Below are positions 30,549-37,439 of a stretch of 64,000 nt of DNA, in pieces. Position 1 is the first letter of the stretch. Each line of letters opens with the position of its first letter. The notes under the pieces are model-generated. The model searched no databases, was not told the DNA's origin, and saw nothing but the letters and a program-made list of their open reading frames with translations. The translations under genes were made by a program, and so were the position numbers. The stretch is from Stackebrandtia nassauensis DSM 44728 (GTDB lineage Bacteria > Actinomycetota > Actinomycetes > Mycobacteriales > Micromonosporaceae). Location of the stretch: the NCBI RefSeq assembly GCF_000024545.1, contig NC_013947.1:3658001-3722000 (forward strand), in the 5' to 3' direction.

Positions 30549-30567
30549 CGGTTAGCGAACGGTTAGC
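30549..30567 (+). promoter_or_regulatory. SARP-type direct repeat in the lanthipeptide promoter
   Basis: CGGTTAGC occurs at 30549-30556 and again at 30560-30567, an exact 11-nt period. A TAGGAA string, possible -10 element, starts 7 nt after the second copy at 30575. Repeats one helical turn apart and about 8 nt before -10 are the hallmark of SARP binding sites. Confidence 0.7.
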
Positions 30568-30661
30568 CCCTGAATAGGAAACGTATCACCGCCGATGGGC
30601 ACACTCGGTCTCGCTGACCCGGTCGAACCCTTGATCGGGCCGTTATTGCGAAGGAGATCAC

Positions 30662-30856
30662 ATGTCGACTGCGACCATCACCCGCGCCTGGACCGACGTC
30701 GAGTTCCGGGCTGGCCTGTCCACTGAGGAGCTCGAGCTGGTCGAGCACCCCGCTGGCGACCTGGACGCCGAGCTGCGCGAACTGTACATCCACGAGGCCA
30801 CCGCGCAGTCCACCAACTGCACCAAGTGGACGGGTTCGCCGAACTGCTGCTGCTAG
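30662..30856 (+). CDS. lanA: Class II lanthipeptide precursor peptide
   Basis: A 64-residue precursor with a strong ribosome site (AAGGAGA). Residues 1-46 form an acidic leader (STEELELVEHPAGDLDAELRELYIHE). The probable core is TAQSTNCTKWTGSPNCCC at residues 47-64, with four cysteines (53, 62, 63, 64) and Ser/Thr at 47, 50, 51, 54, 57 and 59 available for dehydration and lanthionine formation. A possible AxA-type cut after ATA would give a 16-residue core. Three consecutive terminal cysteines are unusual. It is followed by a hairpin and the LanM gene. Confidence 0.9.
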   Translation: MSTATITRAWTDVEFRAGLSTEELELVEHPAGDLDAELRELYIHEATAQSTNCTKWTGSPNCCC

Positions 30857-30883
30857 TCACACAGTAGGGATCGCCGTATGAAA

Positions 30884-34159: not shown

Positions 34160-34167
34160 GGGCGGAC

Positions 34168-36018
34168 ATGCCGGGACTTCTCGACGAGGTTCAGCAACCG
34201 GTCGGCAGGCTCAGCGCCCGCCGTCAACTGTGGCTGACCGCACAGGCACTGCGCATGGTCTGGGCCAGCGCACGCCGCGACTTCTGCCTGGTGGTCGCCG
34301 GGGCGCTGATCCTGGGTGTCGGCGCGGGCCTTCAGGTCATGCTGACCAACAACGTGTTGCAGTCGGTGCTGGCGGCCAAACCCGGCTCCGGCCTGCCCAG
34401 CAGCGTCGTGGCGTACCTGATGGCCTTGGTCGCCATCACCGCGGCGCTGAAGTTCACCGCGTCGTTCCAGAACGAACGCGAACGCGTCGTGGGTGAACTG
34501 GTGGCCCGGCACGCCCAGACCCGGGTGCTCGACATGGCCGCGACGATGCGGCTGGAATCGTTCGAGCAGCCTGAGTTCTACAACCGGCTGGAACGGGCCA
34601 CCATGACCGCCGAGATCCGGCCGATGCAACTGGCCTCGGGCCTGCTGGGGGCGATCAGCGCCACAGTCGCCGTCACGGGGGTGCTGGCCGCGCTGCTGGC
34701 GATCAGCCCGCTGCCGGGACTGCTGCTGCTGGTGTCGGCGGTTCCACTGTGGCTGGCCACCGGCCGGGCCAACCGGGCGCTGTACGCGTTCAACTTCCAG
34801 ATGACCCATATGGACCGGGCCCGCAGCTACCTGGGTTTCCTCATCACCAGCCGCGACAACGCCGCCGAACTGCGCGCCTGCCAGGCGACGCCGTTCCTGC
34901 GCGGCCGCATCGACGACCTGTACGACCAGCGCATCACCGCCGTGCGGGACATGACCCGCAAACGGGTGCGGGTGTCGTCCTTGGGGACCCTCGCCAACGG
35001 CGTCGTGGTCGCGGCGGTGATGCTGTTGACGGTGGCCATGGTCGCCGAGGGCTGGATGACGATCGCCGAGACCGGTGCCGTGCTCGTCGCGATCGCGCTG
35101 GTGAGCCAGAAACTGATCGTCGCCGCCGACAGCGCGCTGCTGCTGCACGAGAGCATCCTGTTCGTCGAGGACCTCGTCAGCTTCATCGAACCCGGACGGG
35201 TCGCGCCACCGCCCCAGACCGAACAGCGGACGAGCGCTACGCCGTCGGAGCTGGCGTCCATCGAGCTGAAGAACGTCGACTTTCGGTACCCCAGCGGCAA
35301 AACCCCGACGCTGCACGACATCGACATGGAGCTGCGCGCCGGGGAGGTCATCGCTTTGGTGGGCGAGAACGGCTCGGGCAAGACCACATTGGCCAAGATC
35401 ATCGCCGGGCTCTACCAGGCCACCGGCGGCGCGGTCCACCGCAACGGGGAACCGTTGACCGAGGCGGTCACGCGCACGCATCGCGGCCAGGTCGCGGCGG
35501 TGTTCCAGGACTTCGTCCAATACCGACTGTCGGTGGCCGACAACATCGCGATGGGTCGCCCCGAACGACGCGACGACACCGCCGCGATCCACGCCGCCGC
35601 GCGGCGGGCCCGTGCCGCCGAGTTCATCGAGGCGCTGCCGGAGGGCTACGACACCCAGCTGGGCAGCCAGTTCCTCGGCGGTATGGAGCTGTCGGGCGGG
35701 CAGTGGCAGCGCCTCGCCCTGGCTCGGGCGTTCTTCCGGGACGCGGAACTGATCATTCTGGACGAACCCACCTCGGCGCTGGACCCGCGCGCCGAACGCG
35801 AACTCTTCGACGACATCCGGGAACTGTGCGCCGGACGCACCGTCCTGGTCATCTCGCACCGGTTCGCGAACGTCCGCTCGGCCGACCGCATCTACGTGCT
35901 GGCCGACGGCCGCGTCTCCGAGGCCGGTTCCCACGACGAACTGATCAAACTGGACCGACGGTACGCCGAACTGTTCCACATGCAGGCCAGCAGTTACCAG
36001 ACGATGGAGACCCGATGA
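34168..36018 (+). CDS. lanT: ABC exporter (membrane and ATPase fused), no leader-peptidase domain
   Basis: A 616-residue half-transporter. ATG at 34168, 8 nt after the LanM stop. Six membrane spans lie between residues 35 and 325. The ATPase domain has VGENGSGKTTLAKIIAGL (Walker A), GGMELSGGQWQRLALARAFF (signature), and AELIILDEPTSALD (Walker B). The N-terminal C39 peptidase of class II LanT proteins is absent, so leader removal must be done by another protease, possibly after export. The signature motif has GGMELSGGQ. ATGA overlap with the next gene. Confidence 0.92.
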   Translation: MPGLLDEVQQPVGRLSARRQLWLTAQALRMVWASARRDFCLVVAGALILGVGAGLQVMLTNNVLQSVLAAKPGSGLPSSVVAYLMALVAITAALKFTASFQNERERVVGELVARHAQTRVLDMAATMRLESFEQPEFYNRLERATMTAEIRPMQLASGLLGAISATVAVTGVLAALLAISPLPGLLLLVSAVPLWLATGRANRALYAFNFQMTHMDRARSYLGFLITSRDNAAELRACQATPFLRGRIDDLYDQRITAVRDMTRKRVRVSSLGTLANGVVVAAVMLLTVAMVAEGWMTIAETGAVLVAIALVSQKLIVAADSALLLHESILFVEDLVSFIEPGRVAPPPQTEQRTSATPSELASIELKNVDFRYPSGKTPTLHDIDMELRAGEVIALVGENGSGKTTLAKIIAGLYQATGGAVHRNGEPLTEAVTRTHRGQVAAVFQDFVQYRLSVADNIAMGRPERRDDTAAIHAAARRARAAEFIEALPEGYDTQLGSQFLGGMELSGGQWQRLALARAFFRDAELIILDEPTSALDPRAERELFDDIRELCAGRTVLVISHRFANVRSADRIYVLADGRVSEAGSHDELIKLDRRYAELFHMQASSYQTMETR

Positions 36019-37439
36019 AGACAGTCAGCTTCGGACAGCTCGGCGACCGGCTGCACGGCCGACTCATCCTGCCCGGCGAACCGGACTTCGACTCGGTGCG
36101 CAAATGGTTCATCGGCCGGTTCACCGAGACCGTCCCGCAGGCGGTCGCCCGGTGCGCCGACACCCGCGACGTCGCCGAGGCGGTCGCGTTCGCGCGCGCC
36201 AAGGACATACCGTTCGCGCTGCGCAGCGGAGCCCACAGTTTCGCCGAGTACAGCATGTCGGAGGGTCTGGTGATCGACCTGGACGGCATGGACGAGGTCC
36301 GGGTCTCCCCCGACGGCGCCACCGTGACCGCCGGGCCCGGGACCCGGATCGGTCCGCTGGCCGAGGTTCTGGCGCGGCACGGCCGGGTCGTGCCGGTCGG
36401 CTGGTGCCCCATGGTCGCGGTCGCCGGAGCCTCGATGGGCGGCGGTTTCGGTCCGCTGGGCCGGTACTACGGCCTGGGCTGCGACCACCTGGTCGGCGCC
36501 GAGGTCGTCCTGGCCGACGGCAGGATCGTGCGCACCTCCGAGACGACCGAACCGGATCTACTGTGGGCGTTGCGTGGCGCGGGTGCCGGGAACTTCGGTG
36601 CGGTGACCTCACTGACGTTTCGCACCCGTCCCGCCGTACCGGCCGTCCACTTCGCCGCGTGGTGGAAACCCGAGGACGGCGCCGCGGTGATCGACGCCTG
36701 GCAGCGCTGGGCGCCCACCGCGCCGTCGAGGGTCAACGCCGAGCTGATCCTGCGCTGCTGGCCCGATCCCGACGAGCCCGCCACCCTGTCGGTGTTCGGG
36801 CTGATCGTCGGGGCGTCGCCGCGCGCCGCCGCCGAACGGGTCGCGGAGCTGGCCGACCTGGTGGGCATCTCCCCCGAACGCGTCACCTACACCGAGCTGA
36901 CCGCCGAGGAACTGCCCAACCACCACACCTTCGCCGGGGAACCCACCTCGCACAACAAACTCGGCGGACGCCCCGGCGACGCCGAACCCGGCGTACGGTT
37001 CGTGAAGTCCGAGTTCTTCGACGCGGCCGTGCCGCTCGACGCGATCGCCGACCTGGTGGACGGACTGCTGCGCGACCGCGTCGCCAGTCAACAGCGGGAG
37101 TTCGAGTTCATACCGTGGGGCGGCGCGATCGGCGAACCGGCTCCCGGTGACACCGCCTTCGTGCACCGCTCGCCGCGCTTCCTGGTGGAGCACAGCGTTC
37201 AGGCCTACGGTTCGGCCGAACTCAAGCGGGCCTCGCACGAGTGGGTCACCGCGTCCAAGGCGACCCTGCACCGCTGGGGAAACGGCCACGTCTACCAGAA
37301 CTATCCCGAACCCGACCTCCCCGACTGGGACATCGCCTACTACGGCGACAACCTTCACCGACTGCACGCGGTGAAGGCTGCCTACGATCCTGACGGGGTG
37401 TTCCGGTACGAGCAATCGCTACGCGCGGACGGGTTCTAG
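36015..37439 (+). CDS. BBE-type FAD-dependent oxidoreductase, predicted bicovalent flavin
   Basis: A 474-residue flavoenzyme of the berberine-bridge/glucooligosaccharide-oxidase family, translationally coupled to the exporter (ATGA). The FAD domain shows FALRSGAHSFAEYS with His74, and GWCPMVAVAGASMGGG with Cys131. These two positions carry the 8-alpha-histidyl and 6-S-cysteinyl flavin links in the family, so a bicovalent FAD is predicted. The C-terminus VKAAYDPDGVFRYEQSL is the family end motif. Location as last gene of the lanthipeptide operon suggests oxidative tailoring of the peptide; substrate is unproven. Confidence 0.9.
   Translation: MKTVSFGQLGDRLHGRLILPGEPDFDSVRKWFIGRFTETVPQAVARCADTRDVAEAVAFARAKDIPFALRSGAHSFAEYSMSEGLVIDLDGMDEVRVSPDGATVTAGPGTRIGPLAEVLARHGRVVPVGWCPMVAVAGASMGGGFGPLGRYYGLGCDHLVGAEVVLADGRIVRTSETTEPDLLWALRGAGAGNFGAVTSLTFRTRPAVPAVHFAAWWKPEDGAAVIDAWQRWAPTAPSRVNAELILRCWPDPDEPATLSVFGLIVGASPRAAAERVAELADLVGISPERVTYTELTAEELPNHHTFAGEPTSHNKLGGRPGDAEPGVRFVKSEFFDAAVPLDAIADLVDGLLRDRVASQQREFEFIPWGGAIGEPAPGDTAFVHRSPRFLVEHSVQAYGSAELKRASHEWVTASKATLHRWGNGHVYQNYPEPDLPDWDIAYYGDNLHRLHAVKAAYDPDGVFRYEQSLRADGF

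Follow-up and report, generated by a model that had tools for sequence, protein, structure and literature searches.

The closest described systems are the mersacidin/lichenicidin-type class II lanthipeptide clusters (TIGR03898, TIGR03897). A four-gene operon of the soil actinobacterium Stackebrandtia nassauensis DSM 44728 shares with them its LanA leader family (at the cut-off score), its LanM architecture and an ATP-binding cassette (ABC) exporter, but its precursor ends in CCC, Pfam recognises no peptidase domain in its exporter, and the cassette includes a flavoenzyme of the berberine bridge enzyme (BBE) family. The operon lies in the window, the whole 64,000-nucleotide stretch analysed here (G000:C1:3658001-3722000, from a genome of 6,841,557 bases in one contig). 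Described enzymes of this family, namely EncM, BBE, GOOX, FmqD, SfmCy2 and NapU, have the same PF01565 and PF08031 domains, flavin adenine dinucleotide (FAD) anchors, Y/FxN motif and fold, as well as a Glu at the position of EncM Glu355. The window's enzyme, in contrast, is linked to ribosomal peptides and falls in a clade of its own, marked by Glu364, Trp368 and Tyr430.

Redox enzymes encoded with a lanthipeptide synthetase have precedents in LanD, LanJA/LanJB, a luciferase-like monooxygenase and a P450 (PMC7268733), but these are of different families and the excerpted text of that paper names no BBE-type enzyme. The earlier note on this DNA had listed LanD decarboxylases, LanJ-type reductases and 2-oxoglutarate hydroxylases as the known lanthipeptide oxidations. 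That list was incomplete: the same excerpts name lanthionine S-oxidation, halogenation, a luciferase-like monooxygenase, P450s, and FAD-dependent oxidoreductases in class IV clusters. In section 8, the FAD family of these class IV oxidoreductases goes unnamed and their cluster membership is left undecided; two LanL clusters found here (in genomes G317 and G318) carry BBEs of the window's clade. A published link between BBE enzymes and lanthipeptides was not found in an open-licence PMC library, among the top-listed papers where result sets were large. The sections covered of PMC12402327, PMC7955054 and PMC12932754 concern other clusters or genes and report no BBE enzyme in a lanthipeptide cluster; those of PMC12715929, PMC10027976, PMC11251773 and PMC12291118 give no match for berberine or FAD; and the main text of the 2024 BBE review (PMC11375781) has no word beginning RiPP, lanthi or ribosom.

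The genes of the operon and the key codons of the flavoenzyme are as follows, with conservation counted in the 25-member BBE clade described below.

30662..30856, + strand: LanA precursor, 64 aa; leader with PAG motif, C-terminal end EATAQSTNCTKWTGSPNCCC, TIGR03898 score at the cut-off
30950..34159, + strand: LanM class II lanthipeptide synthetase; GTG start preferred, the reading frame also opening at ATG 30878
34168..36018, + strand: ABC exporter, 616 aa; ABC_tran match in Pfam and an MsbA-type match over residues 32-607, below cut-off
36015..37439, + strand: BBE-family flavoenzyme, 474 aa; FAD_binding_4 and BBE domains
36234..36236, + strand: His74 codon, predicted histidyl FAD anchor; kept in 24/25
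36405..36407, + strand: Cys131 codon, predicted cysteinyl FAD anchor; kept in 22/25, Asn in 3
37104..37118, + strand: clade signature Glu364-Phe-Ile-Pro-Trp368; Glu364 aligned with EncM Glu355
37293..37304, + strand: Tyr427-Gln-Asn-Tyr430, the Y/FxN motif plus Tyr430; Tyr430 in 25/25 of the clade and 9/27 outside, Asn429 replaced by Gly in 4/25

By their sequences, these four genes are a class II lanthipeptide operon that includes the BBE enzyme, and lanthionine rings are predicted for the product. LanM contains the DUF4135 dehydratase and LanC cyclase domains (PF13575, 413.9 bits; PF05147, 219.2 bits) and scores 939.6 bits against TIGR03897, whose cut-off is 304. Adjoining it is a precursor with a leader and a Ser/Thr/Cys core, as expected of a class II cluster; LanA scores 23.5 bits against TIGR03898 (the mersacidin/lichenicidin family), exactly the cut-off, and its Kribbella homologue 37.9 bits. 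LanM stops at 34159 and the exporter starts at 34168, leaving an 8-nt gap, and the ATGA at 36015-36018 is common to the exporter stop and the BBE start. The coordinates thus bear out the spacing that the earlier note had described, and its placing of the oxidase within the operon is upheld by this tight spacing, the stop/start overlap and the same genes in 21 other non-redundant LanM loci. The gene set it gave also stands; its start at 30549 does not, LanA beginning at 30662. Within the four-gene operon no separate immunity genes were recognised, and a promoter/terminator scan of 30400-37600 returned 0 and 0 sites.

The assignment of the fourth gene product to the BBE family rests on several agreeing features. 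PF01565 (111.1 bits) and PF08031 (61.2 bits) both match above cut-off, and the His and Cys anchors are present, as is the Y/FxN motif (Tyr427-Gln-Asn429) defined in the cited section 4 of PMC11375781. The AlphaFold2 model has a mean pLDDT of 95.1, and its top Foldseek matches are EncM (E 8.3e-36, TM 0.84) and BBE-like oxidases; among the 50 fold matches listed, all are BBE/VAO-type proteins. His74 and Cys131 occur at the positions previously noted, and with Cys131 present the His-only covalent FAD of the EncM type was rejected for the window's enzyme. The proposal of a bicovalent flavoenzyme therefore holds for the window's anchors and less strictly for its relatives, 4/25 of which are without one anchor residue (Cys131 is Asn in L053, L054 and L055; His74 is Asn in L061). 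Bicovalent FAD attachment, as predicted from the anchors, would be usual but not universal in the clade.

A careful tree of 52 BBE-family proteins places the window's enzyme in a clade of 25 members, supported at 99/93. Within it, 22 members adjoin LanM, one (L077), at a contig end, adjoins the same exporter, and two (L054 and L055) adjoin LanL, while none of the 27 rows outside has LanM or LanL in the examined flanks; for L002 and L003 these flanks were only 1.5 kb, and the LanM search gave a single LanM match in their genome. Chance proximity of BBE and synthetase was rejected on this contrast, 25/25 in the clade against 0/27 outside. The 52 rows comprise the 25 clade members, L002, L003, L052, L065, L066, L187-L198 and 10 other rows from genome contigs; the remaining rows entered only a quick 83-row tree, which grouped the identical 25 with SH-aLRT support of 87. 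Both LanL assignments are firm in NCBIfam (1008 and 1016 bits, cut-off 650), the L054 synthetase shows RamC_N, kinase and LanC domains in Pfam, and short precursors with leucine-rich acidic leaders were found at both loci, one in L054 and four in L055. Sequence comparison thus supports as sound the conclusion that the window's BBE is a member of an oxidase clade dedicated to lanthipeptide clusters of two classes.

Three residues mark this clade in the 52-row alignment. Glu364, Trp368 and Tyr430 are each present in 25/25 members, against 1/27, 6/27 and 9/27 of the proteins outside, respectively; this signature is descriptive and no independent test, because the same rows built the tree. The sister BBE L052 has the Glu and the Trp, with Phe at the Tyr430 position. 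Glu364 aligns with EncM Glu355, which we take to be the catalytic base of EncM, and all three residues are presumed to lie at the active site.

Several relatives merit description in their own right. A BBE paralogue with 41% identity, L002 (G000:C1:6410960-6412282), is encoded in the same genome and falls outside the lanthipeptide clade. Next to the sister L052 (G339, 2944-9596) lies a protein that joins a radical SAM domain to a class II tRNA-synthetase domain, and two proteins of that region resemble FemAB weakly, with scores below cut-off; this may be another peptide pathway. L054 (G317, 6978-13261) and L055 (G318, 2646-9892) each combine a class IV LanL with a BBE from the lanthipeptide clade, and in L054 Pfam also recognises a prolyl oligopeptidase that may be a leader protease.

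The association recurs widely. In a family-level search of 354 genomes, LanM matched in 115 and some BBE-family protein in 351. The best 14 BBE matches (E <= 8e-105, the window's included) divide into 11 that adjoin LanM, 2 that adjoin LanL and one, L052, that adjoins neither; two further BBEs with LanM neighbours (G075, G136) stand lower in the list. Gene mapping placed LanM with BBE in L047, L048, L050, L051, L053 and L058-L064, with the order LanM-BBE-ABC in L050 and no ABC gene in L053. A profile scan of genome contigs with the BBE alignment gave 210 loci, of which the best 80 were examined: 15 have LanM-ABC upstream on the same strand (L067-L072, L074-L076, L078-L082, L113), L077 has the ABC exporter at a contig end, L073, on the same contig as L055, adjoins LanL, and 63 have neither LanM nor LanL in the examined flanks (up to 8 kb, ending at contig ends). 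With duplicates left out (L067=L047, L068=L048, L079=L059, L081=L062, L082=L061, L113=L064, L073=L055), 21 non-redundant loci besides the window combine BBE and LanM. Named carriers include Kribbella, Lentzea, Nonomuraea, Planomonospora, Rhizohabitans, Allorhizocola, Salinispora and Hamadaea. A scan of viral contigs with LanM found 0 relatives, and the L071 LanM matched 0/396 genomes of a phylum sample at E<=1e-100, a search that had no positive control and merely hints at rarity.

A LanM tree of 72 rows, 22 of them BBE-linked, drew on 40 further regions, a subset of all LanM matches, and the BBE-linked LanMs occupy two distant places in it. The window's LanM clade, of Stackebrandtia and Kribbella, has BBE in 4/5 clusters and a second one, clade B, in 18/21. 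A single clade of BBE-linked LanMs was rejected (p-AU 2.4e-9, on a quick tree, for a group named post hoc), and the oxidase has thus apparently changed partners. Exporters of both BBE-linked groups fall in one 24-row clade, with one ABC protein of L175 as the nearest outsider and the other 23 ABCs apart. The simplest reading of these trees is that the oxidase, often with its exporter, moved between two LanM lineages and LanL. The earlier note had also called for a genome-neighbourhood survey of LanM with BBE enzymes, to be decided by whether homologous clusters consistently lacked the oxidase; the association is recurrent, the oxidase is not consistently absent, and at these frequencies in the two LanM clades the claim of a new tailoring enzyme survives.

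LanA reading frames were chosen by eye with simple filters, and some may have been missed. PAG and one core Cys are invariant in 22 aligned precursors, and those of L074, L075, L076 and L078 have PVG instead of PAG. Aromatic residues are absent from the cores of L051, L058 and L060, and the third LanA core of L047 is without Trp; Trp/Tyr as a conserved target, and aromatic oxidation as the shared reaction, are disfavoured on these grounds. Common to the class II and class IV cores are Ser/Thr and Cys close together, that is, a predicted thioether ring, and the backbone. Two precursor sets stand out: L080 (Rhizohabitans arisaemae, 1261-3005) has seven LanA reading frames with like leaders, variable between CT/CS-x-S and a terminal CC, much as in a small combinatorial library served by a single LanM and a single BBE, and L050 (G339, 5026-5214) includes, among Cys-bearing paralogues, a LanA paralogue with an intact leader and a Cys-free core.

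We think it likely that the BBE enzyme serves as a dedicated tailoring oxidase, which uses O2 to oxidise the modified peptide by two electrons (about -2 Da), and it probably adds an undescribed chemical change to lanthipeptides. Beyond the computed operon structure, family, conserved association and conserved residues, we infer the peptide as substrate, the two-electron chemistry, its timing and site, and leader removal outside the operon. LanM would dehydrate and cyclise the LanA core, after which the BBE enzyme, with FAD on His74 and Cys131, would accept a hydride from the modified peptide onto its flavin, Glu364 and Tyr430 being the likely acid/base. O2 would reoxidise the flavin, giving H2O2 and leaving a mark of about -2 Da per event. 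The favoured site would be a C-H adjoining a thioether or a backbone amide, so that an N-acyl imine or a dehydro-residue would arise and might then be trapped as a ring; the exporter would then secrete the peptide, and a protease encoded outside the operon would remove the leader. About 13 kb from the operon, at 50999-54319, the window encodes a 1106-aa subtilase (Peptidase_S8), a leader-protease candidate.

Two-electron oxidation of the ring backbone, or of a position beside it, is favoured because the thioether ring and backbone are common to both classes, and because of BBE hydride chemistry and the FmqD precedent. According to the parts of PMC11375781 drawn on here, BBE oxidases transfer hydride to FAD and dehydrogenate alcohols and amines, bicovalent FAD permits open active sites for large substrates, and in the FmqD reaction a peptidyl alkaloid has an amide oxidised to an imine, which is then captured within the molecule. 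The conserved residues, two synthetase classes and two LanM lineages point to one conserved undescribed modification rather than a stray gene, and such an enzyme would offer a flavin/O2 tool for peptide editing.

Several observations weigh against this interpretation. The five LanMs nearest the window's clade (L147, L148, L149, L152, L153) have no adjacent BBE, nor do the clade-B LanMs L056, L057 and L181, whose genomes (G318 and G317) encode BBE elsewhere. The exporter clade includes oxidase-free L049 and L157 and hence is not exclusive to BBE. Genome G346 (L049), of the same genus, has LanA-LanM-ABC with no close BBE (best E 1.1e-25); its core TTGCTKWSGSPNCCC is near-identical to the window's STNCTKWTGSPNCCC, and the oxidation step would therefore be dispensable there. 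The two Stackebrandtia genomes, G000 and G346, offer a natural control, with near-identical cores of which one has the enzyme and the other lacks it. No core residue separates oxidase-bearing from oxidase-free clusters, and the oxidase-free L147 core also has the C-terminal end CSQWSGGLCCC. The catalytic roles of Glu364 and Tyr430 are founded on alignment and recall, the activity is itself predicted, and a non-peptide substrate is conceivable.

As to what the oxidation yields, a specific and rather doubtful version is that a backbone amide becomes an N-acyl imine, as with FmqD, which a nearby Cys thiol or Ser/Thr hydroxyl then captures. If true, the product would carry a thioether or ether crosslink at the alpha-carbon, a sactionine-like ring, and lanthipeptides of both class II and class IV would acquire it from a flavin oxidase with no radical SAM enzyme involved.

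Sulfoxide formation on the lanthionine thioethers (+16 Da), perhaps via an EncM-like flavin-N5-oxide, appears unlikely; the earlier note had suggested S-oxidation among the possible outcomes. It would act on the predicted thioether common to class II and IV cores, and EncM, the closest fold match, uses a flavin-N5-oxide (PMC7662398, in the part cited). EncM is anchored via His78 according to the same source and lacks the aligned second-anchor Cys, whereas the clade keeps its Cys in 22/25, and BBE enzymes are mainly dehydrogenating oxidases in the passages used of PMC11375781. S-oxidation is thus a less natural outcome for a BBE enzyme than dehydrogenation.

Comparably improbable is a role in immunity or detoxification, or on a small co-product, in place of peptide tailoring. 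The BBE-family enzyme NapU inactivates its own antibiotic through over-oxidation (PMC11375781, section 8, as excerpted), which, with no separate immunity genes recognised in the operon, speaks for such a role; confinement to synthetases of two classes with a fixed residue set hardly fits unrelated small molecules, and G346 retains LanA-LanM-ABC without BBE.

Slightly less credible still is replacement of LanD, in which oxidative decarboxylation of the C-terminal Cys would give an enethiol and then an aminovinyl-cysteine ring (-46 Da). The precursor ends are suggestive: CCC occurs in 6/6 precursors found in the four BBE-linked window-type clusters (one each in the window, L048 and L069, and three in L047), and CC in those found in BBE-linked clade-B clusters except L050. 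The four Cys-bearing precursors of L050 with a ribosome-binding site, however, end in CY, CY, CR and CA, and none of the 5 class IV precursors found near the L054 and L055 BBEs ends in Cys, which disfavours this decarboxylation as the shared reaction. Oxidase-free L049, L147, L149, L056, L057 and L181 likewise end in Cys (L148, L152 and L153 do not). LanD belongs to a flavoprotein family other than BBE, and identity of the window's enzyme with this HFCD flavoprotein was rejected, Pfam giving only FAD_binding_4 and BBE and the fold matches being BBE/VAO-type. Most improbable is a dithiol oxidase closing a disulfide between neighbouring C-terminal cysteines: the CC/CCC ends of most aligned class II cores invite the idea, but it is disfavoured as the shared reaction because only one Cys is present in the class IV precursor of L054, and Ser plus Thr at least equal Cys in 27/27 class II cores counted (each core delimited by eye at its start; L050, L074 and L078 left out), so that no thiol need remain free.

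Returning to the operon, two further features flank or interrupt it.

30884..30918, + strand: hairpin in the lanA-lanM gap; perfect 12-bp arms 30884-30895 and 30907-30918, 11-nt loop
27572..30541, - strand: divergent SARP/AfsR-like regulator (Pfam/NCBIfam)

GTG 30950 is the more likely LanM start than ATG 30878, because the perfect 12-bp hairpin sits between them. A hairpin in this gap also occurs in L047, L048 and L049 (Stackebrandtia), L069 (Kribbella) and L147, with longest perfect stems of 9-15 bp; the sequences differ and the position is kept. A GTG with GAAAGGAC just before it, 3' of the hairpin, is found in the window, L047 and L048. The tblastn matches in L048 and L049 extend to residues 4 and 2 of the longer LanM reading, so the ATG start keeps some likelihood. 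The hairpin is a probable transcript attenuator or stabiliser; the fold of the 111-nt stretch is ordinary against shuffles (z -1.54), which weighs against over-reading it. The regulator is perhaps pathway-specific, and BTAD regulators adjoin LanA-LanM also in Kribbella L069 and G339 L051.

Elsewhere in the window, 672-6312 holds V/A-type ATPase genes in an actinobacterium (a 116-kDa subunit I and two alpha/beta subunits, Pfam), and 13271-17235 encodes an Fe-S protein, an FAD/NAD reductase and nickel hydrogenase small- and large-subunit-like proteins, perhaps an NAD(P)-linked hydrogenase.

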